64,000 bases of DNA from Chloranthus sessilifolius (taxonomy: Eukaryota > Streptophyta > Magnoliopsida > Chloranthales > Chloranthaceae), in contig CM037590.1 in the NCBI GenBank assembly GCA_021018995.1, forward strand, positions 39,744,287 through 39,808,286. The letters are read 5' to 3'. The translations under genes and the position numbers were made by a program. Below, piece by piece: positions 295 through 61,100 of this stretch. How positions within the stretch are numbered: position 1 is the stretch's first letter; each line of letters begins with the position of its first letter. The notes below the pieces were generated by a model, which worked only from the letters and a program-made list of their open reading frames with translations, did not search any database and was not told the origin of the DNA.

Positions 295-359
295 TAAGTG
301 TTAGGAAGCAAACCCCCTATTTATAGGGTTTGGGGAAGTAAAAAAAAAATCCCCAACGG

Positions 360-1091: not shown

Positions 1092-1175
1092 CTCTGGATG
1101 AACAATGCCAAAGGTGCCAATGCGCTTCCCTTTGCAAATGATATTAGCTTGTCTACCCGGGAAAAATTCTGGTTC
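1092..1175 (-). CDS. FARSB: PheRS-beta exon (FFPGRQANI / GTFGIVHPE)
   Basis: 84 bp, 28 codons: [20 protein letters not shown] then TFGIVHPE, ending before GTACTT. FxPGRQAxI and GxxGxVHPE are C-terminal signatures. The last exon (family ending VLxxFDIPDPCS and about 10 more residues) is not visible in 1-1091 and presumably lies upstream of the window start. The preceding intron is 99 bp. Confidence 0.96.
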
Positions 1176-4100
1176 CTACAGCAGCCAGTCAGGATGGTTA
1201 CATATCATTAAATTAAGTGTCTGAATATATAACAACTTTAAGAAAGCTACAAAATTTCCTGATAGAATCCTTACTTGTGAGGGGCTTATATAATAGCCTG
1301 AATTATCCCCACTTGCAACAAGAGATATTCCAACAACTTCCATAATTCTGTCGACCAGACCATGAATTACCTACAAAATTGGAATTTGGAGATTCAGAAA
1401 GCAACTTGCAGTAAACTATCTCTGGAATGACTAAGTTAAATTTAATATGGGCTAATGGCTCCTGAAAGACGTTTAAACACCAATAAACGATGTACCACCA
1501 CTAGATTAGAATTTTTGTTATCTCACACCATTGAAGTGTGTTTTCCTAATATGCCATGGGGCATCAATTTATGATCAATCTAAATGGTTCAGGCGGCAAT
1601 CCATCATTGAAAAATGTTTTAGCCAAATAATCATGTCCATAAGTGAATGTGAACCATCCAATTCGTGAGTTTGAATATCAGCCATTAAAACTAAACACAA
1701 CGATTGGTATTAGAGTGCACAGATCGGATGGTTAAAACCTCTCAAAAAATATGATTTTTGGTCCCACTACCTTTTAACTTATGATCTATCACTTTGACAG
1801 TGTGGATTACCCACACCTCGAGCCCATTTTGGTGCTCAAATGACAGTCAGGAGAGTCGTGCCCAATATAAATTATGCCACTAAATTTCTATGCTGATGTC
1901 AGCAAGGTAGGATGTAGCACCAAGGTATTGACACGGGTCCCGCTTTGATACCAAGAAGACGATTAGGGTTGTGGAGATGAGTGCATGGATCAAAATTTCG
2001 GCTGAAATGTTTCGGTTACGGGCCTACCCGAAACGAAAATAAGGACAAATTCGGCTAAGGGCCAAAATTTTGAAAATATCGGCCGAAATTCCAAATTATC
2101 GACCAATAATTTGAAATTTTCAGCCGATCATCCGAAATTTTCAAAATTTTGGCCGAAAATTTGGAATGTCACTTTAATTTTTTTTTTTAATATGGTCTTT
2201 TGCATCGAATTTTTTTTTGTTCCCATACATTTACCCGAGTTTCATTCCTTTACACTTAGTATATTTTTTATTTTTCTCCTCTCCTCTCTCCTTCCATAGC
2301 TTGGCGAAATTTCGCCGAATATTGTCGGATCTTGACGAAATCTCATCGAATCGTACCGTAATTTACCAAATCTCGTCATATTTCGCCAAAAGTTGCCGGG
2401 TTCTCGCTGGATTTTGATAGATTCTCTTCCAAAATTACCGTAACTTACCGAATATAGTCGGATTTCTCTGTATCTAGTCGTATCTTGCCGAATCTTCCCA
2501 GATTTAGCTGGATCTTATCGAATCATACCTGATTTCGTCAGATATTGCTGATATCTTACCGGCTTTAGTCTCAATAGGTCAGATACGTTTTCTAATAATG
2601 TGAAAGAGTTACAAAAACAAAGTTCGGCAAAGTTCGGAGCAAATTTTTCGAAAATTACAGAAAATTACCAAAAATTGACCAAATTATGGTGCAGGTGATG
2701 AACGAAACTGAAATCGAGATTTTGATCCATGGATGAGCTGTTTAGATTAGTGGTATAAGCTAACTGTCAGTAGGACAAGGATTTACAAACCCGCTCTTTT
2801 TTAAAACTATTACACCACACCAATTTACCAAACATATATCATTCCCATTGTTCTTCTATGTATGTTTTTACTAATTTCCTCTTTCAAATATATTTTTTTA
2901 TAAAATACATATTTTTAAAAATATTTACTAAATTACCAAGTTGGATTGAGTCGAGTTTTCCAAGTTTTCAAGTTAACTCGACCAGGTTGATTTCGATGGA
3001 AGGGGGGGTACTACTTATACTTGGTCTAGTCTACAAAATTCCCCTACTTTATGTAGGCTGGATAGATTCATATGCTCCAATGAATGGATGAATTCGTGTC
3101 TGGAATCTCTGGATGCTATTTCTAAAGGGCTGGCTAGACCCACATTTGAGCATACCCACGTTTGACCATAGATTTTAGAGGGTTTGCGGAGGAAGACAAA
3201 ATGAATAAAGGAAAATTCTGACGAATGGGTCGCTTTCGAAAGAAATCAAAGAATTTCTTGGGAGCCCTACAAGATCAATTCCTTATTTTTTCTCTAACAA
3301 ATGGTCAGAATTTCATTCGGGTTCAAATCCTACTGAGAGGTCCACTAGAGATCAAAACAAATAAGCTTTAGCTAATGTAATAAGGATACCAATTGTTCCA
3401 AAGACTCCACCTGTTTTATTTATTCTGAAAAGTTTCAAAATTAGAAATTATCACAGGTATCAATTGACCCATCGATTGGATCATTGGAGTTATCATGTCA
3501 TTGGCCTAGGATTTAAACTAAAGTTTTGGCTAACTGTTGGTGCATCATCTCTAGTAATCAAGGAGCTTTTATTTAAGGGAGGCAGCTACTGGATGTGGTA
3601 CTTACAGCTCATGAAGCGGTGGAATCTGTTTATAAAAGTAATAATAGTGGGATTATATGGAAGGTTGATATGGAGAAAGCTTACGATAAGTTGACTGGGA
3701 TTTGCTAAGTTATATGATGAGAAGGATGGGATTCGAAGAGCGATGGAAGCATTGGATGGCAGATTTTATATCCTTTGCTTGGTTTTCGATATTGGTTAAT
3801 GGATCACCTAAAGGATTCTTTCAAAGTTCGAGAGGCCTTAGGCAATGAGATCCTCTTTCTCCTATGTTGTTTAACATAGAAGCTGAGTTTCTCCACAATG
3901 AGAAACACGCCAATGGTTTCCCATTTGCAATATGCAGACAATACTATAGTCTTCTATAATAATAGTCAAGATGATCTTCAGAAAGTGATGGATGTTCTGT
4001 TTACCTATGAGCTGGTGTCTGGCCAAAAAGTGAATTTACAGAAGTATAAGTTGTCTGACATCAAAGTGGACGAGGATGTGCTGAAAGGGTATGCAAATAC

Positions 4101-7100
4101 AATTGGGTGCTAGATTGAAAACTTACCTACTCGTTATCTAGGGCTCCCTTCTGGAGTGGGCAAGCCGAGAAGTAAGATATGGGACCTGGTCATTAGTAGG
4201 TTTGAGTAAAGGTTGGCTATTTGGAAAAGTAAGATGCTTAGCAGTGGGGGAAGATTGATGCTCATCCAATCTTCTCTTTTGTCTCTCCCAATTTCATATT
4301 TGTCTTTGTTTAGAGCCCGGTTGTTGTGGTTAAAAGAACGGAAAAAATCATACGAGATTTCCTCTGGGAAGGTGCTAAGGAGATGAAGAAATTTCATCTA
4401 ATAAATTGGGATACTTGTTGTCTATCCAAAAAAGGTGGGCTGGGTATTCGTTAATTGGGATATACTAATATGGCTCTGTTAAGAAAGTGGTTATGGAGGC
4501 TTGGTGATGAAAAGGAAATCATAATTTGTGGCGGCAAGTCATGGAACTAAATATGGTCACTTTTTTGCAAGGCAGAACTTCAAAGGTGCTGCTACTAGAG
4601 GTTCTGTTTTTTATAAGAGTATTGTCTCAGTCATCCTGGAATTTCGCATAGGCTGCAAATTTAGCTGAGGGAGAGGGGATAAATAGATTTTGGAATGACG
4701 TGGGTTGGTGATGAGATTTTAACAACCAGATTCCCAGAAATTTATAGCTTAGCAGTGCCCCGGAGGCTAAGGTGGAGAAAATTTTGAATCGATTAACAAG
4801 GCTGTTGTGTGGAATCAGCAATTAAAATAGCGGTTTCATTTTCGGGCATGACCGAACTGAAAATTTGAATTTCAGCTGATAATTTCCCCTCCATATATAT
4901 TTGGACCGAAATTTAGGTTCAAATTATCATTTCGGTGGGGACCGAAAGCAAAACGATTCGGCCGATTACTTGAGTTATCACCGAAATTTTGAACCATGGT
5001 GTGGAATGTTAAGGTTCGTAGAAATCTCAACAAAGAGGAGGAGATGGAGTATTTGTCACTGCTTCATATTCTTAATTCTGTTGATCAGAATATGGTAGCA
5101 AGGGACTTGCGGATTTGGTATCTGAGTAAGAAAGGTGTTTTTTCGGTAAGCTCCTTCTATTCTTTTATTTCTCAAACTCAAGGTGAGAACGGATCATGGG
5201 CTAAATTATGGAAATTAAAGATTCCATCCAAAATTAAATTTTTTGGTTGGAATGTTGGATGAGGGCGTATTTTAACCATTGATCGGCTGAACAAAAGGGG
5301 AATGAGACTTGAAAACAAATGTATGATGTGTCTTCAGGAGGAAGAGACTATCAATCATCTTCGCCATTGTTGTGTAGCCAAAGAAATATGGAATGTGGTG
5401 CTGCAGCTTGTCAATATGTGTTGGGTGTTTTCGGATTCAACCAGTGGTTTGCTAGCTGCTTGGGACAGAGTTTATTTGGAGCAATGTTCTGAAAATCGCA
5501 CGGGTGGTTCAGACCCTTGGGCGCCTCGATTTACGCCTGGGTGGACTCCGGGGCGGACCCCAGTCCCCAATTTTTTTATTTTTTTTATCTCCTATGTTTT
5601 TCTTCTTCGTAGTTTTTTTCTTCTTCTTCCTCAGTTTTTTATGATCTTGCACAACACTTTTTTTGTTCTTTTCCTTTTTTTCTTCCTCCTATTCTGGAAA
5701 GTGGCACACACACATAGCGGCCGCCCAGATTTTGGGGCGCCCGCCCTGGCGTTGCCAGCGATTTCCCCCCGAACATCCCCCCGACCGTCTGAACCCACCC
5801 AATGATTTTAAGAACACTAATTCGGAGGATGATTGAAGTTTGTTTTGGAATTTACATGGCTCTTGTAGTTATGTGGGCTCTGTGGAATGAAAGGAACAAC
5901 TAAGTGTTTAATCGTGTTCGGACACCTTCTAGTATGATTATGAAGAATATCGGGGATTTGGCAATTAGCTGGATCAGATGGGTACTAATTGTTCTCCTGA
6001 TAGAGACTATGTGGCTGATTGGTATAACCTCACAAAGTAACCTCTTTTCCTCTCGCGTTTGGGGGCTCTATCCATGGTTTTGTGTGTTTATTTTGGCTCG
6101 GGGGTGAGGATTATTTGTGGTAGTTAGTTGATTAGGTTTTCCAGCACCTTGCTGGTTTTTGTTTCTTTTTTCAGTTTTGTATTCCTTTTCCTTTCTTAAT
6201 ATATTCGTTCTTTACCGATAAAAAAAGGATGATTTTCGGGTCAACAAAGAAAGTTAAATCCCTCTTTGAACTCACAAGAAAAGACACAAAATATTAAACT
6301 AATAGTTAAAAAGTAACTGAACACCACAAAAATGTTCTATATGGTTAAGCTTCAAATTAACTAGTTCACCAAGAGATAAACAAGGGCTATCTTACCTACC
6401 CCTTTGGTAGGCCAGAGTTTCGAACAACATTTCCTTCAAAGTTCGATTTTAAATATTCAATTACGGATATTTTTGTTGGCTGCAACAGTTTGCTATTTTC
6501 CTTATGCCACTCTCCACTAATGCTCTTGAAAGTTCTCATCAATCTTCATGTCTTAACAGAAAATATATTGGAAATATTGATGATCATAGACAAGTGAATG
6601 ATAAAGAACTTCACCCTCTCAGATAACCCCCCTTCTCTGCTATAGCGCAAGAATATTTCTTTCCTCCCAAAATTTTATTCACTTTGAATCCAAAGTCTGC
6701 AAATCTCAACTTCTTAGATTGAAAACTTTAGTCCTATATAACTGATCCTAAACTTTTAAAATAATAAATAACACATACAAAGCAAAAAAAAGACAAAGAA
6801 AAAGAAAAGAAGTCAAACTTGCATTAATAGTGTTTATGGCCTTAAGAAAAACACAAGGGTAAGGGATTTCAACTAATCATCATCATTCGCTTATCCCATA
6901 AATTTAGGGTCAGCTTTGTGAGTCTTATTTATCCATTCATTTCTATTCATGGGCTAAACACTTATATCACTCCACAATCCTTCACGTGGCTTCTCATTGC
7001 TTCCTCCAAATCTTCATCAGTCTTCCTTTTCGTGCACTTCTTTGTGCCTGTATTATCTGAATTCTTTGTAGGGGCTGTTTCTGGCCTTCGACGGGCATGT

Positions 7101-22100: not shown

Positions 22101-25100
22101 ACTGCTGTTTTTGTGTTATCCTCGCGATTTAACATTGAGAAATTTTCTTTGTAAGAGCACAAAATCCAAGTTAAAACCTCTGTAAACCCAGTCATAGCAA
22201 TCTACAGGGAAAAGGGCATAATTTAAAGTTACAACAATGTAATAAGCGTAGGAAACATTTAGATATTCACACATGCAAAGAAAAAAAAATATAGATGCTT
22301 TCTTAGTTTAACCATGAAAAAGTAACCACTCACAATCAAGCTTTACTTAATTAACTCATTCAGAGAACAAACAGAATAATATTGTCTTGAATTAATCATT
22401 ATTAATGAAGCTAGGAATTATATGAAAGGCTTCACAACAATTTCAAGTCAAACAGAAGCATCCAAGAATGTTCCAAAATCAATAGACTTAAATGACACTT
22501 CACAGATGAATTCAGTGCACATCTAGGAGAAAAATTGCAAATTATTCACGAAGGTGGTGTGCTCATCAGGTTTGCAGTTTCAACTCAAATTAAGACATCT
22601 CTTAAACTAAGCCAGATAAAAAAACAGTTCCTCATTCAGGCTTAAATGACACTTTGCAGATGAATTCAGTGCACATCTAGGAGAAAAAATTGCAAATTAT
22701 TCACGAAGGTGGTGTGCTCATCAGGTTTGCAGTTTCAACTCAAATTAAGACCTCTCTTAAACTAAGCCAGATAAAAAATCAGTGCCTCGTTCAAGTTGTT
22801 ACACTAAAAAAAAAGTCAGATAAATTAGAGGAAAGTACAAATATATTTTGTAATAGGGATAATGGCTCCAGTCCTGACCGACATTCAATTGATGATATAT
22901 CACTTTGACGGTTGGATTTCCAAGATCATAAGCCAATAAATGGTGTAAGATTGCTTAAACAGCATTTGGTGTTTAAATGACGGACAGGAGAGTAGGTCCC
23001 TTTATAATAATATCAGATAATTGAACAGGTAGTTCCTCATAAATTGGACACTAAGTAGACAGATGCCATATGTGAAAGCAAACACCAAAATAAACAGCTG
23101 CACTGCAATGCGAATTCCATTACCAAAAGAAAAATGGTAAGGTCCTTTTCCAAAGCATTTTTAATCTTCACATTGACTTGTCTAATAATCCTCACAAGAA
23201 ATAATTGTCACAATAGACTTGTTGAAACCAAAAAATTCTTACTAGGAAAAGAATGTTCCTTTCTTAATAATGAAAGAAATTTTAGATAAAATATATTTCC
23301 TCCAGCGGGATCCTCTATCACAAACAGTAGATTTTAGATAAAGATAACTATTGAAAGCTTAAATGAATCCAGGGACATCTCTTTCAACGATGAGAAGAAG
23401 TCTTCTGGTACGCATCTCGCTTTGATGTGTCTGGGGCACCCTTGCCAAATTTTATAGGTTACACCCATTTGACTAGCATAGCACAAACCAAGTAACCTGA
23501 AAATTTACTTTGGTTCGTCAATTGTGAAGAATAGAGATAAATTCAGTTTGTGGCTTCAAGTCTGGTATCATTCGTTTCCATTTTCATAAAATAATCTATT
23601 TAATCATTTTCAATATTAACTATAACTATCCAAAGATTTCTGTTCACTTCAATATGCATGAGCCCATGTCTTGAAGGACTTGCACTCAGCCACGAGTAAA
23701 GATGGTTTACAACATCCTAGTTCCACATAACCAGCCAAACAAGATGCCAGACCCACAATTTTGCATTATCAGTTGAACATTAGCATTTGCATAACATTAT
23801 CACTAATGCTGATACCATCCTAACCCCTTTTTATCTTACATCAACTTGTATACATGTTCATCCAGATCAAAACTCTGGCAAGTTTGATAACAATTGAATA
23901 TATATCCCTTAAGCCAAAACACATGATTCCCTACATTCACACCACTCTATTGGTAACAGAATAAAAAAATTACAGTCGCAGTTCCACACAACTGCCTAGA
24001 TAATATTAAAAAAAGCTGCATCTCCTGTATTAACAAACAGTTATGAAAATAAAAGATTATAGTGATCCTTCCGTATCTAGCATACCAATTAGGAAGATAA
24101 TTCACATATGAACGCAGATAGTAAATACTTGACGCTACAAATTGATAATATGAAGCCTGATTAATAAATCAAAGCAAAGTAGGTTCTCTTCAGTACCTCC
24201 AATCTAACAAGATCAGTGACTTGGTTCAATGGCTGCTGTCGTCCTTGTGTCAAGGATGCTGGCTTCGTTTTTGGTATTTTGTTAAACCCATAAGCAATGG
24301 CAACATCCTTAAAAGAAACAAATGCAAAATTACTATAACAATCAAAAATTACTATAACACACAAGAACTTCAATGAACGATCAACAGAAATAACACACTC
24401 ACTAATGAGAGAGAGCTAAAGCTAATACCTCCATCACGTCACAAGCATGAAGAATATCACTTCTGGTTGGTGGCACAGATACAATGATACTGGATTGGCC
24501 ATCCTTCGAAACAGAATGTACGGAATGCAATTGCATTTTGTTCAACAAACTTGTTACCTGGAAGATTCATTTGTAAGTACATGACCAGAAAATCAAATGC
24601 ATCAAATATATATTCGAAGTATAGAAAAACATGGTTCTCAATATCTTACGATACACGATACTGATGGGGACATCAAGATCAATGGCGTCGAATTTGGGCC
24701 GCAACAAATTCCCCAGCGTCGGAAGAAACTGGAGCATTGGGTGTATTGAGATCAATCGATTGATCCCAAAGAATCGATCGATCGATTGAGGCTAGGGGCC
24801 TCAGAACTTTTGGCGAAATTCTTTTCCCAGTCGATCGATCGAGTCTTAAATCGAAAGTAAACAAAGAGTTCACGCGATTTATAACTTCATAAATCGATTT
24901 GTTGCGTGAGTTAGTTCCATTAAAAGACGAGATTTAGTTTTTCGGGGTAAACTTGTCTTTTGTTTTATTATTATTTATTTGTTTTAGAGTTTTCTTTTTT
25001 GTGGCTTACTATATAAGGTCTTTATAACTTTGTAATAGACAATGATTATTGAATGAAAATTTGAGAGCTTGCTTTGTGCAAACCCTAGAAGACTTGTGAA

Positions 25101-37100: not shown

Positions 37101-40100
37101 GAAACCACATCGGACATTAGATCCGCATATGTAATGAGTCAGGCCATGGCATACTTCTTTTTGTTAAAAAACTAAAAAAAAAATCCCAAATAAATCCTAA
37201 CATTAGAAACCACTATAGTTTTGTTAAACCTTACTACCTTAGTTAGCTACAAAATATAAAACAAATGTTATCAGCAAAGATTTGAGAGAGAGAGATTATT
37301 AAACTCAAAAAGAGAGTATGAGACACAAAACATACCTTCAAGAGTTGTGGTAAGTGTTAAGAAGAGAACCCCTTTATTTATAGGGTTTGGGGAAGCCAAA
37401 AAAGAAAAAAGAAACAAAAATGAAATCTTTAACGGTCATAAATATAACCCATTGGAGACAGTATGACCATGGATCAAAATTTTGTCCGATACCGATACGT
37501 ATCGGACGATACGTATCGGTATTGGAGCTTAACGATACGGTACATTCAATGTACCGTATCGTCCAATTGTATGGCGGGTACCGAATGATACATTCAATGT
37601 ATCGGACGATACCGATACGTATCGTTTTGGAGCTCGGACGATACGTATCGGTAACCCGAGATTTTGACCCATGAGTATGACATCGCATTCAATGTATGTG
37701 TGAGCACATTGTCGCATATGCCACAATATGCGATCGCATACAAAAAAGTAGGTGATGGCATACTTTACTGGATCGCATATCCCATCATGGCATATGCATA
37801 TGCGATACCACCCTTAAAACTGGCACATGTGATCGCATATGACAACACTTCTCTTGACTTATAAAATCCAGGGCCTCTCCACTCGTAGCCAGTTTGATTT
37901 ATCATGGAATCAGAGCAGGTCTTTCTCCACTCCACATCACTCAATTTATTTCTCCACGTGCTTTGGCTTGTGTCCCCAATACGTGTGGGGGCGTATTTAG
38001 TTTAGTCCCACATCGGACATTCATAAACCTTGTCTCTCAACTTATAAGATCCAGGGCCTCTCCACTCATTGCCAATTGGTTTTGAGATGGATGTCCAAAT
38101 TTATCAATTGCTTGTTTATTTTTTTCCAGTTTTCTTCTGTTTTCATTTTTCTTTTTTTAAGGGTTTTCATTTTTCTTTTTTCATGGGGTTCAGGCTTTCA
38201 CTTAGTTCATGGCTTCATGCTACCTTTGAAGTTTCTGGATTAGGACATCAATAGTTCAGTACCATAAGGGACTTGTGCCTGTAGCACAATACAAGGTTGA
38301 CAAATTGCAACCTTAAGGTCGCAGATTCGAGCCCAGCTTACCTATTAAAAAAAAAAATCAGTACCAGACTATCAGCTCAGTCATCTCTGCACTGGGAATT
38401 GTATTTCCAGATTGACATTATCAGGCATATCTCCTCAATATGTAACGCTATTAACTGTTTTAGTATTTATTTTAATGAGATATATCCAATATTCTTTTTA
38501 TTTATGTAATGTAGTGATCTAAATTTCAATGAGACTGATTATTCTCTTATTTTATATAATTTTCATAATTTTTATCTTATTCTTCTAATTTTTAAAAAAA
38601 ATATCATATTTTTTCCAGTAGTTTCTGATTTTTGCGAAAAAAATTTCAAATTTTCTCATTGCCGCCTTATGCCTAACTCTGACTAGGTGAAACATAAAGC
38701 AAACTATCTTAATCTTAAAACTGGAAAACAAATAAGGAAAACAGACAGCATCATAGGATAGGTAAACAAATAATCAAGCAAGTCAAAGTCCTTGAATAAG
38801 TGAAACATAGAAGTTCTTTCATATGGAAAGCCATCATACCTGTTGCTATCATATATGACGGGAAATACTGGGGAGTTCTCAATGATGTGCAAGAACTTCT
38901 TCAGTTTCATATCTGACTGCAAAAAATGTTGATTTTACATCAATGGATAAGAATTGATGACTTCCAATCTTGATCAGAAAAGAGAAAAAGTAACTGTTGC
39001 TGTCCAAGCTTTAATATAGCAAGAGTAAAGAATACCCTAACATGGAAACAGCAAAATTCTGTTTAAATAAAGGTCATGGAACTGACATTTTCCTACCCTC
39101 TTAAATAGCATACTTAGTGTCCATTTAATGTGGTCATTTGAGGTTAAAAGTAAACAGCAAGGAAAAAGGCATAAATAGTGTTGGGCTCAGACTTACTTTG
39201 TAAAATTCCATTAATTCGTCAGCCCTGAAGCTTTTTGCCTGCAAAAAAGACCAAGTTACAACAGAAGGCAAAATTTAGTGTTCTTATTTTTTAAAACATA
39301 GATTTGAAAAAAGAATTTAGGAAAATAATAATAATACAAAGAAGAGGAATATTACAGGATACACCGATTAAAAAAAAAAAAGGAATATTACAGGATATAG
39401 GAATGATCTTAATAACACGGAGGTCCTAAACGATTGCAACAAAATATGTGAAGGGAATCACATTGAGAAACACAAAAGCACCTATGAGAAGAAAAGCATA
39501 TAATACACATTGTAAGAAACAGGAAAGCAGAAGAGTCAAAAGGGGAAATAAATAAATAAATAAACACATAACTCAGTTAAGCAATGTTGTTACAAAGTGT
39601 GAAATGGTAATAGGCTTGGGCTTTCAAGCATGAGAATGCGGGTTCGAGACAAGAAAGCAGCCACTTTGTGCGTAAAAAGCCAGAGGTTAGGTTTGTATCC
39701 CGTCCACCCCTCCCACCACCCCATATATATGGGACCAGCACCGTGTAATGGGCTTTAATGCTGTTACAAAGTGGAAGCCTCGAAGAATCCAGAATTGTGC
39801 ATTAATTTTTATTTCATTAAGGTCTCCTATATTTCAGCTTCTAAAAGGCAATCTAAACCACCAAAGTTCTGCATTACTTTTCTTCAATCACTTATCCTGC
39901 TCCCACATGATGAACATCTGATAGAAGATATAACAGGAAGAGATAAGAATGTCCAAAAATACAAATTTGGTTTGAATATTTCCAGTCTGGCTCACTCATC
40001 CACATCTGAAGCCTGGCTTCAAGAGGGGCGCACACAGACAATAGAACGGTTGTGGCGGGGACGCCGAGTACGTGGACATCGGTTTTGGACCACATCGCTC

Positions 40101-43100
40101 CTACCGGCGTCAGAAGAAACGAAGAGGAAGCCAGAGTACTACAGCTTCAGGGGAGAAAAGGAGACATAAAGACACAAAACCGTCATCCAATGATAGACGC
40201 CCGTGAACAATGACTGTGAACAGTGACAAACGTCCGTGATTGTGAGCCCTCAATGTCCCTAGGCGATGGACGTCCGTGGATATCTCCGCCCCAGCGACAT
40301 AAATTTTTATTTTTGCGAAAAAAACTTGCTTTTAGTCTTTAATTGTTTGAAGACTCTTTATTTCGTGTTATTATTTGGTTGTCTATATAAAGAGGCATGT
40401 AAACACAATTATTTAGTTTTTTGAATATTATTGAATGAGCTTTTGTTTAGTGGAGAGATATTCTTCTTCTCCGTGATGGGTTTGGTGTGAGGCCAAGGGA
40501 GTGATTCCCAAAGTTATCTTTTATCTTTTTTATTCCCTATCTTTGTTTTTCCCTATTATCTTAAAATTTATCCCATATTCCGAAGCCCTAATTCAACCCT
40601 AAAACCCTAGTTTTCATCTGAGCCATCAAATCAACCCAATCCCACAGCTCTAGTGAAAACTAGTGAACTTACATCGGGTAGACGACGAACGCCCAAGCCT
40701 GGAAAAGCTAGAGTTCTATCTCTAAGCCCGATCCCGCCATAAATCTAACGGGACTTGCGTATCGGACTGGAAGAGGAAGCCAGAGTACCACAGCTTCAGT
40801 GGAGAAAATGAGACATAATGACACAAAACCGTCATCCAATGACAGACGTGCGTGAACAATGACGGACGTCCGTGATTGTGAACCCTCAATGTCCCTAGGC
40901 GGCGGACGTCCATGGATATCTCCGCTCTAGCGACAGAATTTTCTATTTTTTCGAAAAAAACTTGTTTTTAGTCTTTTAATTGTTTTAAGACTCTTTATTT
41001 CGTGTTATTATTTGGTTGCCTATATAAGGAGGCTTGTAAACACAATTATTTAGTTTCATGAATATTATTGAATAAGTTTTTGCTTAGTGGAGAGAGATTC
41101 TTTTTCTCCATGATGGGTTTGGTGTGAGGCCAATGGAGTGATTCCCAAAGTTATCTTTTCATCTTTTTTATTCCCTATCTTTGTTTTCCCCTATTATCTT
41201 ACCTAAATTTTATCCCATATTCCGAAGCCCTAATTCAACCCTAAAACCCTAGTTTTCATCTGAGCCATCAAATCAACCCAATCCCACAACCCTAGTGAAA
41301 ACTAGTGAACTTACATCGGATAGACGACGAATGCCCAAGCCTAGAAAAGCTAGAGTTCTATCTCTAAACTCGATCTCGCCATAAATCTAACGAGACTTGC
41401 GCATCGGACTGGACCCTAGCTGGATCTCGCGTGATCTACCTATTTGAATTCTCATAACCCGAACGTATCATGATAATTTTGTGATTAAACTTGAATTAAT
41501 TGTATTTAATTTCGGAAAATTTGAATTAAATCATTATTCACGCATTTTAGGGTTCCTGTCCCACGTAGTTTTGGTATCAGAGATAGGTTTCTAGGTTACG
41601 ACATCTTTGCTTGTCATATTTATTATGTTGCATTATGTTTTTTGTGAGTCTATATTGCATTTCATATTAGAACCCTAATAGACATATGTGCTCACCATGA
41701 CTTCAAATGAGATTCTCGATACTCTTAGAGCTCTGCGAGAAGAGTTGGGTGCACTTAATGCACGACTAAATACCATAGAGCAAGCCTAGACAACTCTAAG
41801 AACTTCTAATGATAGCGTGATCGAATCAACCAGTTAGATGGGTTTGATGAGCACCATGATCAGCACCAATAGAGTGAAGGTCCACGCTTTGAACGTAATG
41901 GTCGCCAAGATGATCGGAATCGGAATCATAGGGACCATCGTAGAGATGACTACAACCCCGAAGTGCAACTCCTCAAGAATGTCCGAGTTGACATTCCAAC
42001 CTTCGATGGAAGAACGGACCCTGCAGTCTTCCTTGATTGGCTTTCCGACATAAACCAACATTTTGATTGGTATGGTATGAATGATGACCGTTGTGTTAGG
42101 CTCGCAAAAATGAAATTAATTGGGCAAGTTCGATTTTCTGGGTCAATGCTGAGCGCATAAGGGTGAATGCGGGTTATCCTCCCATTACCCGTTGGGACCA
42201 CATGAAGGAAAAACTTACTGAGAAGTATATTCCTTTATCATACCACCAACGCCTCTTCGACCAGTGGTAAAATTTACGCCAAGGTAGTATGCTCGTGACC
42301 ATGGGTCAAAATACCGGAAAACCGATACGTATCGTCCTAACCTCCAGGACAATGCGTATCGTCCGATACATTTAATGTATCGGCGATACATTGAATGTAT
42401 CGGTTCAATACATTTGTTTTTTTTTCAAAAAATCAAAAAATTCAAATTATCGTCCGTATCGGACGATACGGGCGATACGTATCGTTCGTATCATTCGATA
42501 TGTATCGTGTATCGTTCGATACGCATCGCGTATCGGTGATACATTGAATGTATCGTTTTGAAACATTTTTTTTTTTTTTCAAAAAATTAAAAACCAAATT
42601 ATCGAACGATAATTTGAAATTATCGCCCGATAATTTCAAAGTATCGTCCGTATCGTCCGATACGGGCGATACATTGCCCGTATCAGACGATAATTACCCT
42701 ATTTTTAAGGGGGTACGATACATAGGCAATGTATCGTACCGCCCAGGTCCAAAATCGATACGTATCGGGCAATACGTATCGGTATTGGACGATTTTTTAA
42801 CCCATGCTCGTGACCGAGTACATTGGCAAATTTGAAGAGTTCATGATGAGGGCCAAGGTATCGGAAGACACTGAAATCACTCTCTCTAGATTCTGCACCG
42901 GATGGCGACTTGAGTTGCAAAAAAAGTTGATTTCTCACCCCATGATAACACTTGAAAGATGTTATGCCGTTGTTCAAGATCTTAAACGGTATTTGAAAAC
43001 ATCGATGGTGAAGCAAAGTGAGCCACAACATTGATCCTCGTTCCAGAGAGGAACGATTTAGCGTCGGAAACCAGCCTCCCAAACCTACACAATCTGTCCC

Positions 43101-46100
43101 TACCAATGCGAGGTTTGAAAAGGGAAAAGGTGTAGTCGGAGAATCCTCAAGGGGTAGCGCTCAAGTTAAATGCTATAAATGTCACGTGATGAGATACTTT
43201 GCCGCCAAATGCCTTACAAAAGACCCCCAAAGGTATCTCTTCAATGAGGGAGAGGAGGATGAAGGTGATATAGTGGTTGAAGAGGAAGTGTTTGAGCCGG
43301 ACAACACACCCAGTGATGAGGAGGGTAATGCTAGTGACCATACTTTAGTTGTGAGGTGTGCCCTTGCACAACCTCAACTGGATGAGAAGGATGACTGGCG
43401 AAGGGAGAACATCTTCCACACCTTTGCCAGATTGGGTGAAAAGAGTTGTAAGGTCATCGTGGATAGCGGTAGTTGCACCAGTGTAGTATCAACTCACACA
43501 ATATGCCGCTTGGGGCTTACACCTGAAGCCCACCCGAGACCCTATAAAGTTGTGTGGGTTGACTCTTCATCCATTCCCGTGTCGAAAATGCGCCGTGTAC
43601 CAATTTGAATGTATCGAACGATACATTCAATGTATCGTCCGATACAGACCGGTACCATTACGTATCGTCCGATACGTATCGGTATCGGACGATATTTTGA
43701 TCCATGCTCCCAAAACACCATCGACCAACAAAGTCGAGAAGGGCGAAACATCTAAATCCATCAATATTATGAGTCCTTCAAAATTTGAAAAGGCTTCTTT
43801 GGATGAGAACGTAGTCTACATTGTCATCACTGTTGAGAGTGCTCCTGAGTCGGTGAGCGAGAACCCTAAGGAGGTTGAGTCGATCATGAACGAATTTACG
43901 GATGTCTTCCCAGAAGACTTACCCAATGAACTTCCTCCCATGCGTGACATCCAACACGCAATCGACTTACTTCCCAGATCCACCTTACCGAACCTGCCCC
44001 ACTACAAGTTAAATTTGGTTGAGCACGCCAAGTTGCTCGGCAAGTCAATGAGCTCCTTCAAAAGGGGTTCATCTAAGAGAGTCTGAGCCCGTGTGTCATA
44101 CCTGCCCTAGTCACTCCTAAGAAAGATGGTACATGACGCATGTGTGTGGATAACCATGCAATCAATAAAATTACGGTAAAGTATTAGTTTCCCAGACTGA
44201 GGGTCGATGACATGCCCAATATGATGGTTGGTGCCACTATCTTTTCAAAGATAGACCTCAAAATTGGCTATCATCAAGTTCGAATACACCCCAGTGATGA
44301 GTGAAAAACTGCCTTTAAGGCCATGGATGATCTTTATGAGTGGACGGTCATGCCATTTGGGCTTTTTAATGCCCCGAGTACTTTCATAAGACTCATAACC
44401 CAAGTGTTGACGCCGTTTCTAGGCAAGTTCCTTGTTGTGTATTTCGATGGCATCCTGATTTATAGTCATGAAAATGAACAACACTTGAACCACCTTAGGT
44501 TGGTTTGTGAAACCCTCAAGGGAGAGAAGTTTGCAAATCTCAAGAAGTGCACCTTCATACAACGTTCCGTTGTCTTCTTGGGATTTATTATCTCGGCCGA
44601 TGGAATGGTCGTGGACCCCGAAAAGGTTAAAGCCATTGTGGAGTGGCCCGAACCTAAGAACATACACGATGTTCGCAGCTTCCATGGCTTGGCTACTTTC
44701 TATCGTCGCTTCATCGGAAGCTTTAGCACCATCATAGCCCCCATCATTGATTGCATGAAAAAGGGGCAAAGCCGCGTGCACCCGTCATGCGCTTGCCAGA
44801 CTTTTTCCAAAGTCTTCGAAGTCGCATGTGACACATCGGGTGTGGGGGTATAGGAGTGTTTAGCCAAAAGGGTCACCCAATGGCCTATTTTAGTGAAAAA
44901 CTTCATGAGGCGAAGCAAAAATACTCCACCTATGATAAGGAGTTCTATGCGGTCGTCCGTTCCTTATGGTATTGGAAACATTACCTTAGGCAGCAAGAAT
45001 TTGTGTTGTTCTCTGGCCATGAAGCTTTACACTTCTCAGCTTCTCAAAAGAAGTTAAGTCCAAGGCACGCGAAATGGGTTGAATACCTCTAGGGGTTCAC
45101 TTTCGTGTTGAAGCATAAGGCCGGTGTTGAAAACAGGGCTGCTATTGCGCTTAGTCGTCGGGTGACAACTTTGCACTCTATATACACCGAGGTCATCGAG
45201 TTCAAACGATTAAAGTAAGAGTACCCCGAGTGCCCAGATTTTGGGGTAGAGTACACTGCTCTCCTTAGTGACCCGACCAGCACACACTCCGCGTACACCA
45301 TCAAGGATGGGTACATGTTCAGGGGCAATCGCCTTTGCATCCCTCGCACTTCACTGCGTGACTTCCTTATTTGGGAGTTACATGCCGGAGGATTAGCCGG
45401 GCATTTCGGACATAATAAGATTGTTGCACTCATAGAGGATAGGTTCTTTTGGCATAGTCTAATGAGAGATGTTGCTTGGGTTGTCAAACATTGTCGTACT
45501 TACCAAGTGTCGAAACAGAGTAAGAAAAGTACCGGCTTGTACACCAGGTTACCCGTGCCACACAAACTGTGGCAAGACCTCTCAATGGATTTCGTGCTCA
45601 GACTTCCCAAAACCCTACGGAAGCACGATTCTATCTTTATTGTGGTGGACCGATTTTCCAAAATGACCCACTTCATACCTTGTTCTAAGACCTCCGATGC
45701 GTCCCATATTGCTAAGTTTTTTTTCACTGAGGTCATGGGACTTCTTGGGTTGCCCAAAACCATTGTGTCTAATAGGGATGTCAAGTTCACTAGCTATTTT
45801 TAGAAGACACTTTGGCACATAATGGGCACACTGCTCCAATTTTCGACGGCCTATCACCCTCAAACATATGGCCAAACCGAAAGCACCAATAGGAGTCTTG
45901 GGAATCTCCTTCGTAGTCTTGTCGGTGATCATGTTAGGACCTGGGATACAATTAGTCCATAGCTGAGTTTGCCTATAATAATTTTTTCAATAGGTCCATA
46001 GGCATGAGTCCCTTTGATGTTGTACATGGTCATAGGCCTAGGACACCTTTAGATTTGACCCCCATGTCAGCTTCGCATAGAGTGTCTGAGTCTGCAATTC

Positions 46101-49100: not shown

Positions 49101-52100
49101 TCCTTTGTATTTGTATTTGTATTTGTACCATTTGTCCATTCAATATGCGAATCTTTTCTCTAGGTCCCTTAAGTGATTGTGTGGTTTTGTATGCTACATG
49201 CTAGCAACATAAATTGTATCCCACACATGGGGATATTCCGTGTATTGGTATCTCCCGTTGGCACTGAATTTGTTATTTTTATATCAGTAGCAGTGAAATT
49301 GTTCAGAAGGGCCTTGTGTGGCCTAAATGCAATGTCAATAAGGGCCTGTTTGGATAGAACCTGGTAAAATGGAGTAAAGTTATCGACCTTTTACTTCATT
49401 TTACCACGCATTCCTAACTTGCAGGAATACGCAGTAATATGCAGGAATCCTATGTTTTACTGCACTTATCACTGTTTGGAACTTTGGATAGCAATTTGTC
49501 TGTGTGAGAAATGCAGGAATATTCAAAATCCAATGTTTGGATATAAGCCTGGAAAACACCATAAAATGGAATAAAAATGATATTCAAATCACTTTTGGGG
49601 ATGTGTGCTATGTGGAATCAACATCTAACCGTTTGAAAGGCGGGTCATGATCATGGATCAAAATCTCGGAAAAATGATACATATTGTCCAGCCCCAAAAC
49701 CGATACGTATCAGTTCCGGACGATACATTCCAATGTATCATCCGGTATTTTGAATTTTTTTATGGGAGGCACCGATACGGTACCTTGAATGTACCGTATC
49801 GGTGAGGTCCAAAACCGATACGTATCGGTATCGGACGATACGTATCGGACAATACGTATCCTAAGATCTACAGTGGGTAGATTGGATTAAAAAAATCTCC
49901 ATCCTCTGATTCAAATCAGTCAATGTCCATCAAAAACTGTGTGGTACTTGCTCCGAAAACCGGTGAAAATAGTGTACCCATTTCGAAATCACTAGAGAGA
50001 GAAGGAATTGTTTTGGGAAGAGTACATCTCTGAGATGGATTCTTCATAGCAAAGGAAGGAACGATTTTGGATAGAGTCCATCTTTGAGATGGACTCTACT
50101 AAGAAAAAAAGTAGGTTTCTCTTATTTGCAACCTGCCAAACAGGCTTAGCGTAGGGAAGGTATATAATTTTATTTTATATATATAAATCAAAGTTGAGTG
50201 TAGGCATCTGCCTACACTCGCCCACACCTGGCTACATCCCTGATTATATCCCCCACCTAAGAAAATTGGGGCTTTACAAAAAATGATGTGAGAGAGAGCT
50301 AGAAGAGAGGGAGATGAACCAGCCCCTGCCCATCTAAAAAATAAAATTGCAGCATAGCTGCGATGGAGAGAAAGAGAGAGAGAGAGGGAGATTTACCACT
50401 TCATTCTAGGGGGGGTCGCAATCTATTTTGGAGTTTTGTGGTAAAGAGGGGTAATCTATCTACCACCCTTAAAAAATACCCAAACCAATGAATTTACGGT
50501 AAAATGTTTTACCATACCACGCTTCCCTATATCCAAACAGGCCCTAAAGGGCATGGCCAAGTACTGAATTGCAAAGAAAACAAGTTTACCATGCACCAAG
50601 CATCGAATACCTTAAAAAAACGAAGGACAATATAAAGGTAGATCTATATATATCATTAGAAGTCGCACGAGTACAATCTATGAATGACTAAATGAATGTT
50701 CAACGAGGCTGCCAGAGTTGGAAAAATAGGTCTTTTAGAGAGACTTGAAGGTGGCCTCAAATATATTTATGAAGAATCCAGCTTCAGCAGTGCATGCCCC
50801 AAATAGACACACATGTTTCTTATTGTTACTAATAAGGAATTTATTAATAAATGACAAGACAGGAAATCATCAAGTCATGGATGTCAATCATGCAGAATGA
50901 CAGCAATTTCCATATCTTCAAATGCAATATCTAAGCTCAATCTTAGCACCAAACCTAAAGTCGCGTCTCAAAACAGGAAAATACGACCAAAGAAACAAGG
51001 TATGGACGGCACGATGAATCAAAACATGGCCAAGTACTGAATTGCAAAGAAAACAAGTTTACCATGCTCCAAGCATCAAACACCTTAAAAAAACGAAGGA
51101 CAATATAAAGGTAGATCTATATATATCATTAGAAGTCGCACGAGTACAATCTATGAACGACTAAATGAGCGTTCAACAAGGCTGCCAGAGTTGGAAAAAT
51201 ATGTCTTTCAGAGAGACTTGAAGTTGGCCTCAAATATATTTATGAAGCATCCAGCTTCAGCGGTGCATGCCCCAAATAGACACACATGTTTCTTATTGTT
51301 ACTAATAAGGAATTTATTAATAAATGACAAGACAGGAATTCATCAAGTCATGGATGCCCATCATGCAGAACGACAGCAATTTCCATATCTTCAAATGAAA
51401 TATCTAAGCTCAATTTTAGCACCAAACCTAAAGTCGCGTCTCAAAACAGGAAAATACGACCAAAGAAACAAGGTATGGACTGCACGATGAATCAAAACAT
51501 AAATTGCGATTCAAATAAATATAAAAGAGAAAAGTTGCAGGTAAAAGGACTCTTGCAAGAAAAAAAAACTCATTCGAATAATAGATTCGGACAACATTCA
51601 CACTTATGGTGCATTTTTACAAGCCAAAAGCAAATTCTTACCTGTTTTAGTGGCACGAAGTTTATCTCTGAAGGTGACAGGGCCTGGAAATAAGAAAAAC
51701 ATGTTGTAAGTATTAACTTATCAAGTCAAACATTATTCAAGTATCAAAGACTAGGGACCATTTGACAACACCTAAAACATGATGGCCTCAATTTCTAACT
51801 CCGGCCATCCATGTTTGATAACTGATCAGGTCTGGATGAAAAAAAAAAAGTTGTAATTAATAATTTACGAAGTTTAAACCTTATTCAAGTATTAGAGATA
51901 TTTGGACAACACCTAAAACGTGGATGGTCCCAATTTTTAAAAGAGGTCATCCATGTTTTATAAATGATCATGTTTGGACAATATCATTGGGAGAAAAACC
52001 AGCATGGCAATTGGCCTCACGAAAATATCCTTGATAGCCACATTTATATAAAAATAAATAAATAAAATCATTCTGAAACGCAATCCCCTTTCATTTGTTG

Positions 52101-55100: not shown

Positions 55101-58100
55101 ACTTTCCATTATTATTATTATCATTATAATTTGTGAAATTTCATTAGAGAAAAAAGATAAAAGTTATTATATACAGAAGCTGAGAGAGATACTCAGTAAA
55201 AACAAAAGGAAGCAATAACAGTAAAAAATTGGAAGAACAGGAAAAAGATTTTAGGAGGAGGTAGTAAGCACGTCAGGTCCGTGAACATCATCTTTAGTAG
55301 AAGTGGTAATTCATAAAATTACTCCGTGTTTAAATTTATTATTTACTTGATACAAAGGTAAGATTACTCTATATTCTCTAATTAGATTTGCATTTTAGGA
55401 TTACATGTCATTCTAGAATTGTTATTATCACTATCCTTGTTAATAATAGATGTAGGTAAGATAACTCCATGTTTAAAATTAGAATTTTGATGCATAAAGA
55501 TCATATTACTCTATGGTCTCTTATTATATTGGCATACTACATGGTGAAGTTTAAGTATCCACTGAGTGTCATTAAGAAACTTAAAGAATTGAGAGGGATT
55601 GTTCACGGGATGGGAGGGAGGAATCCAAAAGGTTTCACTCTGTCAATTGGGATGTGGTGAGGTTTTCTTTTGGGGAAGGAGGTTTGGGTATCCGGCGGAT
55701 CAAAGAGATAAATGAGAAACTATTGGGAAAATGGCTCTGAAGGGTGCACGAAGGAGGGCACTGTGAAGACCCAGATCCGCATGCCACAATATTGTCCGGT
55801 TCTGGGCTTAGATCCCCGCCCTGGTTTTGTTTCTGGCATGGGCTTAAGTCCCCACTCAGAACGCGTCATGACACGTAGTGTCCGCAATCACATATAGCCC
55901 AGGGTCAAGACTTTTCTCTATCCAATGTGGGACTATTACAGGCACTCTTCATATGCTTATCACAAAATATGGGAAATGCAAGAAATGGTTGGAAAATTGG
56001 CCGACGTATGCTCCACCAAGATTGCGTTCAATAAGTGCATTTGCTACGTGAGGTCCTTTGAACCTCTCTACAAGCCTTGCTACAGTTTTAAAATGTTTAG
56101 TTATGGATGTTTCTAATAATATTCGACTGGCTGCATTTGGGATATACAGCTTAAGACAGAATTTCATAGACAATGAGAATGATCTCCATGGTGACCTTTT
56201 GGGATTGTTGGAAAATACGTCCCCCAACATGAATATCCAGCTCACTGGATTCTTTTTGCACAGTTTGTTTTTTATTTAGGTAAGCTAAGCTCAAACCTGC
56301 GACCTTGTGGTTGCAATATTGTCAACCTTCCATTGTGCTACAGGCCCAAGCACATTGTACAGTTTCTTGCTGCTTTTAGTATATTTTTATTACTAACATG
56401 TATATATAATATATATACATATATTATATATATATATATAAGTTTGGACTGTAATGGGAGCAAATGGATTGAATTGGTTCACTAAACTATTCAATAAGAT
56501 ACTAAAACACAGAAAATGTATGATGAATGGAGGAAGAGCATTGTGGTTCCTTTTATAAGACCAAATGAGACATCCAAAATTGTGCCAACTATCGAGGTAT
56601 TAAAATTATAGACCAGACTATGAAATTCTAGGAGATAATAGCAGAAGAACTAAGATAAGAATCGAGTGTATTAGAGAACAAGTTTGGATTTATGTTAGGA
56701 AGATTAACAACGGAAGCTATTTTCCTACTGAGGCAAATAATGGAGAAATTCAGAGAGGGAAGGAAGAACTTGCATATGGTTTTTATTGATTTGGAGAAGG
56801 CTTATGATTGTGTTTAGACAGATAATTTGGTGGAAACTGAGGAAGAAATGTCATCCTGATCTTAGATACTAACATTTATTAAAGTGTTGTAACTAGTATA
56901 AAAACGAGGAGTGGAGAGACGAGGGAGTTCCCCATCGGAGTTGTGTTGCATTAAGGAATTTCCTTGAGCCCTTATTTGTTTGTCATGATCATGAATGTGT
57001 TAACCATAAACATAAAGATGAGATTACATTGTGCATATTATTTGCGGATGAAACTAATTGCCTAAACAAGGAAATAAATAAGTGGTATACTAGAATTATA
57101 GAGAAAAGCCTTAAGAGTAGAGAGGTTTGGAAATTAATAGATTAAATATGGAATAGAGGGAATGCAAATAGAATAGGCGGAAATTAATAGATTAGTGAAC
57201 ATGACAGCCTGGAAGAGGATGTAAATAGAATAGAAAATCATCTTGTACCCCATTATCATAGATTTTGTTATTTAGGCTCTACTTTAAAATCCTATAGTGG
57301 CTTCTAAGAGGACATCTCAAATAGGATTGATACAACTTGGATGAAATGGAGACAAGCAAGCAGAGAATTATATATCCCAAGAGTTTGAATTAGATTGAAG
57401 GACCGATTTTATAAGATGGCGGTTAGACCTGCCATATTACATAGTGTAAATTGTTGGGTTATGAACATGTGACAAGAAGATGAGAGTACATGTGGCTGAG
57501 ATGATGTTTGGAGTAACAAGAAAGGATAAAATTTGAAACGATTACATAAGAAATTTGAGGGTGGGACCTATAAAAGAAAAAATTATGGAATGTCACTTGA
57601 GATGATTAAGACAGGTGCATTGGCGGTTTGAAAAAGATCTTGTATGAAGGATTGAAACGCTACAAGTACAAGGAAATAGGAGAAGAGGAAGACCAATGAA
57701 GATCCGGAAGGAAGCAATGAGAATGGACATGAAGGATTACAAAGTTACAAAGAGCTTAGCATTAACCAGAAACTGAGGGAGAAAGCTGGCCCCAAATAGA
57801 TAGGATAAGACTGATGAAGAGGATTATAATGATGATGACACACACACACTAGAGTTGGATGACCCAGAACTTGTTTGTTATGATCCAAGGATTGGACACG
57901 AAGGGCCTTAAAATTATTACTGGTTCTTTCAAATGGGATAAATTAGGGCACTGGAGCTGATTGGCCAGAACTTACATGTGTGATAAAATATTTGGCACTC
58001 TCCTATAAAATACTTCATGATGTTAATTTGATTTTCTGTCATCATTCATCTTCTGTAATCATACTTGTTTAAGGAAATTTATATCATCATTCTTTTTTAA

Positions 58101-61100
58101 TAGGTTATATTATGTCAGCATACAAATGCACAGTTTATAGTGGGTGAAGTTTCCTGAAAGCTTAGGGCACTGGAGCTGATTGGCCAGAACTTACATGTGT
58201 GATAAAATATTTGGCACTCTCCTATAAAATACTTCATGATGTTAATTTGATTTTCTGTCATCATTCATCTTCTGTAATCATACTTGTTTAAGGAAATTTA
58301 TATCATCATTCTTTTTTAATAGGTTATATTATGTCAGCATACAAATGCTTCACCCATAAAGGGAAAGATCTAACTAATTAAGCTTGTGATAAAATTTGAT
58401 ACATGGAATCCTGTACCATACTTCCAAAAAAGAAATAACCTTATTGCAGTAAAGCTGCTACCATCCTTTGCCGATTAGGGAATGTCATTAGCAGGGAAAA
58501 ATTTTGCACAATGTTTATTTTGCTGATTTTATGAATTGTCTGCTTAAGCCACAAACACGCCACTCACAATAGAAAAATCACACACATATAAAAGTGAAGC
58601 CGTCTATGCTTCAATCAATGGGCATCGCCAAGTACATGAATGCCAGTTAGAAAGTGCTTGGTAAAAGCAGCAAATGAGAGATATTTCTTCATCAAACAAA
58701 AATATCCATCTTACAAAGCAAAAAAATCAATATGCATTACATCTCAAGTCATGCAAAGATGGTATGCTATATAAAGTGATCATTTACCTCATACGAAAAA
58801 GGACCTTGTATTGTGTCCAAATCATGAGTCCCAATAGCAACTAGAGTTCTCCTCCTAACATAAGAAAGGAAAATATGCATTCATGCCAAAAAGAACAAAA
58901 TTATACATTCCCAGACGCACAGACCATGAAAATATCCAAAATGATAGGTGTGCAGGTATAATCCAAAGCCCCAACAATGCAATTATGAATCCTCAAAATG
59001 AAATATAGACAAACAATGCATACACATGCACAATAGCAAATGAATCATGAGAGTGTGTAATACTGATATCATCTCGCCATTTCCTCAAAGCCATCTGAAA
59101 AGAAAGGAAGACTTCCCCTTTTTGACATTTTACAACTGCCAACTTTACTTAGCTTGTAACTAGTGATAGAGGATTTCTCTGTTAACACAAGTCGATAGGA
59201 TTGAAGAAGCAAGGGAGCTTTGCAGGAGACCTCGATATCATTTGTCGGTGTACCTCACAAAGCCAACACCATTGCCAACTCACTAGTGAGAACAGGCATC
59301 AGGAAAGCATTCCTAAAAATTGGTGAATAAATTCCCATGCAGTTTTTCTTTGAGGGCTCCGGGGTAATTTTCCTTTTATTTATGGCATCTTTAAGTACCT
59401 AGGTTCAGGCCTTTTTTGCTCCTGCCTTTCTTTCATTTAAAAAAAGAATGTGTTGTCAATCAGAAAATAAATAAGCAACAATAAGCCTAGTCAGAGCCTG
59501 ATCATATCTCAGATAAAAAAACTAAGGCTTTGTATCTCATGCCTTCCAGAAAAGGCCTAGCCGTCTGCCAATATCTGAAAATGGTCAGGGCTCAAAAGCC
59601 AATTCAACTGAAACGGTTATGTGCAATAATTTTGCCAATTAAGGAATTGGCTTTGCTAAAAATAATCACATACTAACAAGGAATTAATAATAAATATTTA
59701 AATTGTCACGTGCTGATGAGACATCATGCAATGTCAAAGGAATATAAAAATTTAAACAGACATGACTAGGAATTATCCAAAATCTCAGATGTAGAAGTCC
59801 ACATGTTATTCAATGCATGTGTACTTCCAGAAAGTGTATGGAATGGGTGCAGATAGTTGGCACTAAGCAATAGCATATAGGCACAAAAAGTATAAGATGT
59901 GGATTAAAAAGTCCTTCCCTAGCTATCTATAAAAAAAAAGTACTACTCTAGCTCCAAACTGGTGTTAAACGTATATGTGTATTGTTTTTTGTCATCATCA
60001 TATATGTATCATACTGCATCTAAAAGGACTCGTTTGACTGATAGATACAACCAGATATCATTGGTTTACAAATCACAAGATTGAAAACCACAATGAATAA
60101 ACCAACACTCCCCCGACTTAGACATTCGGCAAGTTGAACTAATAGAAAGGGGTTTTGGGGATTGACATTAGAAAGGAAACTTTAAGAATTAAGGAATCTG
60201 AAACTAAATGCGAGACATTATTAAGTTAAATGAATGAGAAGGAGAAGGGAAGAATAAGAAGGAAAGACAGAGGAAGAGATAAGACAGACACAGTGGACCA
60301 TAAAAAGGCTACATTGCTTCTAACTTGGATACCTTGCAAGAGTGACATAAGCCCTTTCTGGAGAGGGGAACATAGGACAAAAAGTTACTCCTAACGGGTG
60401 AAGGACTAAACGCAACACAATAACGCTCTACTCACTAACACTGTTAACACAGTATACTCTCATATTACATGATAATATATCTTACTGCATATATCCAACA
60501 ATGAATTTCGAGGTATAACTATCCAACATCTTGAGAGAGATTGGAAGACAGTGATGGTAGTGAGGCCCACGAAGATGAGCAATCAAAATACCAAATGTAA
60601 TCTTGATTTACGCCCTATTAACAAACAAGGATCGGCAGGTTTTGATGGGTGGTATTACAGACTAATGAAGAAGTTATCAACACCTTTTCAGGATCTATTG
60701 GTGTTAAAGATTCAAATGAAGCGTTAAGTGTGAGCTCTTTTAGAAGGTATTCAGTTAATAAAAGCTAGCATTCAGAACCGATATTATTGGTGGGGTGTTC
60801 TAGATATGTAATTGGAAGCATGTGTAAGAATTCCATCGGCTCTCACTGTTTACGTTCACTTATTGATGAATTATTCGATCTTATCATAAATTTAGACATC
60901 CCGTTCAGGTAGATAAGAAGAGAGGCAAATGAGGTAATGGATTCTTTAGAGAGACGGTGTAACTTGTTTCTCTCTCTTTGTATCCAGGATGTTTCTACTT
61001 TTTGAAAGATAAGATAATTAATTTTATTTATTAAAAAGAGAGAGCACCAAACACAAATCACCCAACCAAATACAATATAATCTCCCCAACATGTTAACCA

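Follow-up and report, generated by a model that had tools for sequence, protein, structure and literature searches.

The CATGG-ended elements of Chloranthus sessilifolius belong to the hAT superfamily, to which an exact 8-bp target-site duplication (TSD), their target preference and a transposase gene behind the same ends assign them. They are very probably hAT MITEs that are mobilised in trans by the DUF659-type transposase of same-ended elements of about 5 kb, the palindromes in their interior being putative binding sites of this enzyme.

Copies in the window

The window, which is the whole 64-kb stretch of DNA analysed, contains all four copies that a sequence-only reading had named (Table 1). 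Two of them, at 37468 and 42300, are complete and carry the perfect 8-bp TSDs claimed for them; the other two, at 43597-43706 and 49652-49860, proved to be truncated. The 42300 copy is 60% dyad by the dyad measure of this analysis, and its right end (42794-42806) shows the end pattern with 2 mismatches. The fragment at 43597-43706 is matched by the profile about equally on both strands, and to judge from translations of the flanks the adjoining Ty3/gypsy coding sequence is perhaps partly missing too. Two class C relatives had been overlooked; in the window copies the array motif of class A is CGATAC/GTATCG, that of class C TTTCGG/CCGAAA. The class C copy at 1984-2731 has a TSD of GATGAGTG/GATGAGCT (6/8) and a largely unique interior, and it matches locus L030:61-837 at 79% over 746 bp.

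With ≤2 mismatches allowed, the dyad CGATACGTATCG occurs 19 times in the window (0.48 expected), and 17 of these 19 matches lie inside the four named copies. The end pattern is less telling alone than this dyad: at ≤2 mismatches it has 16 matches, 7 of them exact, vs 8.1 expected, and no shuffle reached 16. An Rfam search gave 0 matches. The window also holds recent-looking tandem duplications at 57943-58348 (219 bp, 100%), 50552-51500 (473 bp, 96%) and 22487-22793 (155 bp, 95%).

Table 1. Features of the CATGG-ended family and of its host site in the window.
Feature	Position	Strand	Length	Details
Class C copy, overlooked by the earlier reading	1984..2731	+	748 bp	Exact ends, TTTCGG/CCGAAA array
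Class C fragment, overlooked by the earlier reading	~4831..4998	-		Ends in CATGGTTCAAAAT (minus strand)
Left TSD of 37468 copy	37460..37467	.		AGTATGAC
Class A copy	37468..37673	+	206 bp	Ordered palindromes, 58% dyad; TSD 8/8, alignment, tree
Labile 14-bp palindrome unit	37493..37506	+	14 bp	CGATACGTATCGGA; present in 37468 copy, alignment columns 27-40
Right TSD of 37468 copy	37674..37681	.		AGTATGAC
Left TSD of 42300 copy	42292..42299	.		CTCGTGAC
Class B copy, CATGG-ended hAT MITE family	42300..42806	.	507 bp	TSD 8/8
Right TSD of 42300 copy	42807..42814	.		CTCGTGAC
Ty3/gypsy-type retrotransposon remnants	42815..45803	+		Host of two insertions; aspartyl protease-like, RVT_1, Integrase_H2C2
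Class A fragment	43597..43706	.		Right end intact (exact end 43694-43706), left part missing
Class A fragment	49652..49860	-		End at 49652 intact, other end truncated

Flank translations place the 42300 copy within the gag-like gene of the Ty3/gypsy host, whose gag-like part was also found left of 42292; the aspartyl protease-like match to the right of the insertion is below the Pfam cut-off. When the flanks were joined without the element and one TSD, one frame ran across the junction, with a stop upstream. Since the flanks read in one frame, TSD and empty site can be recognised clearly.

Family size and sampled loci

The family is real, as had been proposed: in the genome its CATGGRTCAAAAT ends lie far above the reversed control, and in the sampled loci partner ends mostly come with a TSD. 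At ≤1 mismatch the 2.169-Gb genome (32 contigs) contains 39,749 + 39,650 = 79,399 matches to CATGGRTCAAAAT, compared with 2,236 + 2,165 = 4,401 for the reversed control; the excess of ~75,000 is a number of ends, not of complete copies. A sample of 80 loci was taken around listed exact plus-strand ends; all of them lie within 6.3 Mb of the start of contig C1, which makes the sample local, and it is biased to well-kept ends. The targeted end had a TSD-supported partner end in 57 of the 80 loci, a figure that scores L025 as a miss although two listed L025 ends pair. Most of the other 22 non-paired loci also begin with family array sequence, as seen by eye.

The overlapping loci L001-L008 were excluded from the element counts, and three paired rows were dropped, two as alternative ends of elements counted once (L013 301, L030 94) and one with no array (L011 5496-6142). 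The sampled loci and the window together yielded 75 accepted elements with lengths of 60-1678 (median 219); 61 of them are ≤299 bp. By motif count 63 of the 75 are class A, the longer B type included. The elements have the hallmarks of MITEs, being mostly short, with TIR and TSD, a high end count and a longer coding partner.

Several loci show unusual arrangements. At L051:61-577 a class A element is fused to class B sequence within one 8/8 TSD (GGCGTAAG), the inner A end being still recognisable. The 60-bp element at L025:733-792 consists of two ends and little beyond one palindrome, in a perfect 8-bp TSD (CCTGTGAT). In the class C elements at L013:285-360 and L030:53-115 the first ~27 bp are tandemly repeated along with neighbouring bases of the target site (41 and 33 bp), as though one end had stayed in place or had re-inserted beside itself.

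Target-site duplications and superfamily

Among the 75 accepted elements the TSD agrees at 8/8 positions in 45, at 7/8 in 24 and at 6/8 in 6, figures in which TSD agreement is itself part of acceptance. For this reason we additionally chose convergent end pairs blind to their flanks and used 28 of 29, one having no flank. Here 18 pairs showed 8/8, 3 showed 7/8, 4 showed 6/8 and 3 fewer matches. The family claim had depended on target duplications in most copies, and 21 of the 28 blind pairs have one at ≥7/8; their shuffled partners gave 0 at ≥7/8 and 2.3% at 6/8. Identity in the blind pairs was 0.90 at 8 bp vs a background of 0.21-0.28 at 5-7 and 9-12 bp, and these other TSD lengths were rejected. 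Mutator-like elements have TSDs of 9-11 bp, and an assignment to them was rejected since 8 bp is the only length above background. A satellite array was rejected as well, given that the copies are dispersed and TSD-bounded and that an empty site could be read in a coding gene.

The hAT TIR consensus begins YARNG, which the CATGG tip fits at positions 1, 2 and 5 and from which it departs at position 3. In the 69 TSDs with ≥7/8 agreement (both orientations counted) the consensus has T2 and A7 at 52% each, the flank background being A 33% and T 28%, and Y3 and R6 are enriched. The TSDs lean to nTnnnnAn, matching the preference of Hermes-type hAT elements: Hermes is reported to favour 8-bp targets of this form (PMC10368747).

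Transposase-bearing partner

A partner with the same ends and a transposase gene had been predicted, and it was found in the L026 family, a copy of which on contig C6 has both ends. The end at locus L026 (C1:1423002-1433001) is CATGGATCAAAAT; palindromes follow at 29.5 bp (1 mismatch) and 56.5 bp (3 mismatches), and behind this array lies a decayed gene on the opposite strand with matches to PF04937 (DUF659, E 1.5e-33) and PF05699 (Dimer_Tnp_hAT, E 5.9e-7). DUF659 is described as a domain of hAT transposases that occurs chiefly in Viridiplantae (PMC3985635). When the genome was searched with L026:290-1800, there were 3,465 first-look candidates, and in 34 of the 40 non-self copies scored (the best 40 of the 3,465) homology starts ≤8 bp from the L026 tip. 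With L026:1700-3700 there were 4,163 first-look candidates; among the 39 non-self copies listed, homology to L026 runs from ~1700 to ~3160-3244 in 38 and continues to 3700 in one. At the L026 locus the other end was not found, and 301-5174 was rejected as a complete element, its distant 'end' being AT-rich with 5 mismatches. Nested in the locus is a very common, unrelated repeat of ~870 bp (L026:3706-4575), for which there were 6,641 first-look candidates, the scored copies being 87-91% identical. Close to its end it contains GGTTCGGTTTCGG and CCGATAGTTATCGG repeats, and it may be a further hAT family that has a repeat array of its own.

The C6 copy (C6:80539294-80544239, 4,946 bp) has both ends, CATAGGTCAAAAT and CATGGGTCAAAAT, and a TSD of TTCGTGAT/TCCGTGAT (7/8); it is the sole transposase-bearing copy seen with both ends and TSD. 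The stretch C6:80541537-80543964 has DNA homology to the DUF659/hAT-dimer gene of L026, the middle of the copy being placed by homology and not read. BED-like letters, namely a CxxC and a GGGITRLKxHL piece, were noticed by eye in two different frames, and two N-terminal pieces gave no Pfam match to a BED domain. The 3' end of the C6 copy matches the start of the 42300 copy in the window at 90% over 50 bp, that of a transposase-bearing copy on C9 at 88.9% over 54 bp. In the 5' end of the C6 copy a dyad has its centre at 56.5 bp, and a TTATCG/CGATAA array there matches class B interiors, 42300 included, over 43-52 bp. Between the 594-bp copy L020 and L026 the likeness is 69% over 191 columns, which extend past the array. 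From these shared 3' and 5' sequences and the likeness of L020, class B elements look like internal-deletion derivatives of the partner, and class A looks like the shortest form; in the short copies an internal deletion would then have joined the two terminal arrays.

Four other PF05699 matches, picked by profile range from 150 scored and not scanned for DUF659, had a CATGG end with array in none (0/4) of their 2.2-kb 3' flanks. The dimer domain shares 23-26% identity with that of L026 in three of them, and the fourth is a 9-residue match only. A protein-homologue search with the L026 DUF659 ORF returned 2 uninformative matches. For class C elements a transposase of their own was not identified. 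One class C-like CATGG element (L095:1-1723, C9:104501400-104503122) is apparently nested in a copy of the DUF659-hAT partner.

Ordered and phased palindromes in the interior

The interior had been described as having no unique sequence, only degenerate units; strictly taken this is wrong, for the units keep their order and their spacing. We found that 34 short class A copies align end to end, with the palindromes in a fixed series. Four large dyads, whose arms measure 20, 18, 13 and 14 bp, follow one another in a set order in the consensus, so that the interior is ordered and can be compared copy by copy. This alignment (A1) comprises 34 of the 63 class A elements, namely most of the best-scoring ones, minus L073 (longer) and L012, plus two lower-scoring ones. 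The two lengths of 206 and 507 bp, earlier taken for one array that lengthens, mainly reflect a difference between subfamilies, class A vs class B.

Dyads, defined by perfect arms of ≥6 and a loop of ≤8, cover on average 32% of the bases in class A (range 0-71%) vs 5.8% in shuffled sequence and 5.0% in flanks, and 22% in class C vs 7.2% and 7.9%, respectively. For the CpG observed/expected ratio we obtained 2.05 (class A) and 1.58 (class C), the flanks giving 0.64. At 124 ends, palindrome centres (≤2 mismatches) lie 29.5 bp (49), 31.5 bp (50), 45.5 bp (24) and 55.5 bp (38) from the tip, and 16 centres lie at other distances. Of the 62 elements with a length of ≥150 bp, 43 combine a 29.5-type end with a 31.5-type end and 0 combine two ends of one type; a single end could be recognised in 17, and neither end in 2. 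Type I (29.5) ends carry a second palindrome at 55.5 in 38 of 51 cases, type II (31.5) ends at 45.5 in 27 of 52. The TTTCGG/CCGAAA dyads of class C are found at other, less regular distances from the tips. Changes in the palindrome arms of single copies are mostly one-sided, the pattern that decay following insertion should leave. Double-sided changes amount to 44 cells vs 23.5 ± 3.8 in shuffles, which do not remove relatedness, and 22 of the 44 fall at few column pairs (70/109, 71/107, 157/179).

Hermes is reported to need ~220 bp at each end, where BED fingers bind subterminal repeats and two of the fingers cooperate on one quasi-palindromic pair; it is critical that the repeats keep exact phase with the TIR, and the left end is unlike the right (PMC10368747). 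The elements studied here resemble Hermes, as far as that account goes, in nTnnnnAn 8-bp targets, palindromic subterminal sites, a set phase and unlike ends. They differ from it in that the palindrome is dominant and fills the short elements, whereas Hermes is described with two palindromic pairs among many single repeats (PMC10368747). Since palindromic sites, set phase and unlike ends are as in Hermes, we infer that the arrays are transposase sites, the palindromes being putative subterminal binding sites of the enzyme. Paired DNA-binding domains would bind such palindromes with two-fold symmetry, as in Hermes. The anatomy suggests that the end arrays may also work in the Hermes manner.

The palindromes might also be host transcription-factor sites or passengers that were kept by chance in master copies and have no role in transposition. 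Plant MITEs are indeed reported to carry amplified transcription-factor motifs (PMC12595863), and in Hermes the inner putative sites appear dispensable: when the putative BED sites that lie past the first 50 bp at the left end were mutated, ~70% activity was retained, which means that inner sites need not be used, although the same DNA, when scrambled, gave no or little mobility (PMC10368747). We nevertheless regard a passenger role as unlikely in view of the mostly fixed tip distances at both ends, which are seen in transposase-bearing elements too, and of the different dyads in different subfamilies with the same ends. On the preferred reading as transposase-binding sites, it is conceivable, if somewhat doubtful, that the short elements are operator arrays, i.e. 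two phased sets of palindromic sites and little else, whose dyad has been replaced wholesale in same-tipped subfamilies. The dyads of these subfamilies are CGATACGTATCG, TTATCGnnCGATAA and TTTCGGCCGAAA.

Instability of one array unit

The proposal that the array expands and contracts stood for one 14-bp unit (CGATACGTATCGGA); it did not stand for the array as a whole, whose other tested traits follow descent. On a tree of the 34 copies, built without the columns of the traits tested and with only 7 of 31 branches starred, presence of the 14-bp unit requires 11 state changes vs 11.2 ± 1.4 with shuffled labels; two of the 15 rows scored as 'absent' (L019, L054) are larger deletions. A second unit requires 6 changes vs 10.0 and the centre base of the second dyad 6 vs 13.8, values as low being reached in 0 of 300 shuffles in either case. 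Close pairs can be unlike in the 14-bp unit, as in L016/L024 and in the 37468 copy of the window and L067, which is its nearest copy (95% identity in tree columns) and is without the unit. These data support repeated gain or loss of the 14-bp palindrome irrespective of descent, and inheritance of the other tested traits; local array instability is therefore supported for this unit only. A direct repeat nearly identical to the labile unit adjoins it; slippage therefore suffices and hairpins are not needed. Gain and loss would accordingly proceed by slippage between adjacent near-identical repeats, possibly assisted by hairpins. Inversion of a palindrome, as considered from its C/G centre base, is a weak candidate, the base following descent.

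The emphasis of the sequence-only reading was on the array as a self-propagating hairpin or satellite-like structure, in which the repeats and not a transposase explain the form of the elements. The behaviour of the 14-bp unit, both on the tree and in the two close pairs, speaks for such an array. We consider it improbable all the same, as 34 copies keep the array in the same order and spacing, the second unit and the centre base follow descent, the copies sit in 8-bp TSDs with hAT-type ends and the direct repeat adjoining the labile unit makes hairpins unnecessary.

Relation to known elements and significance

Mobilisation by a hAT transposase, our preferred reading, places the family close to the DUF659 (PF04937) group of plant hAT elements, with which it shares the 8-bp TSD, the short TIR and a partner with RNase-H-like DUF659 and hAT dimerisation domains. 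The phased CpG-rich palindrome array at the ends sets it apart from that group as described. BniHAT of Brassica nigra is reported likewise as a set of hAT-type MITEs of high copy number (PMC7385995); the strings 'palindrom' and 'subterminal' are absent from the text of that paper. An element of foldback type or of another superfamily (Mutator, P, CACTA) is extremely unlikely, for the exact 8-bp TSD with nTnnnnAn bias and the DUF659/hAT-dimer gene behind the same ends stand against it, even if long, internally repetitive ends recall Galileo/Foldback and Galileo repeats are reported to hold transposase sites (PMC3688188). Galileo, for which multiple transposase-binding sites are described, is a P superfamily element with long TIRs (PMC3688188), in contrast to the hAT elements found here with near-exact ends of ~13 bp and local dyads. 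No earlier description of these ends or of this array was found in the open-access literature, the field covered by our search.

Transposons of the hAT type require long stretches at their ends, and what Hermes needs beyond its first 50 bp is described as not yet identified (PMC10368747). By end counts, the Chloranthus family offers tens of thousands of natural variants of a palindromic array with set phasing and two end types, in the same genome as a candidate transposase lineage. Statistics over these variants could show which sites, spacings and unit numbers transposition has tolerated. The labile 14-bp palindrome is a clean system for asking if palindromy speeds repeat loss, and if the short elements are indeed operator arrays, one unit would be a fast copy-number switch. 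Should each dyad match the specificity of the transposase lineage that belongs to it, these tens of thousands of copies would be a record of how a DNA-binding domain and its site co-evolved.
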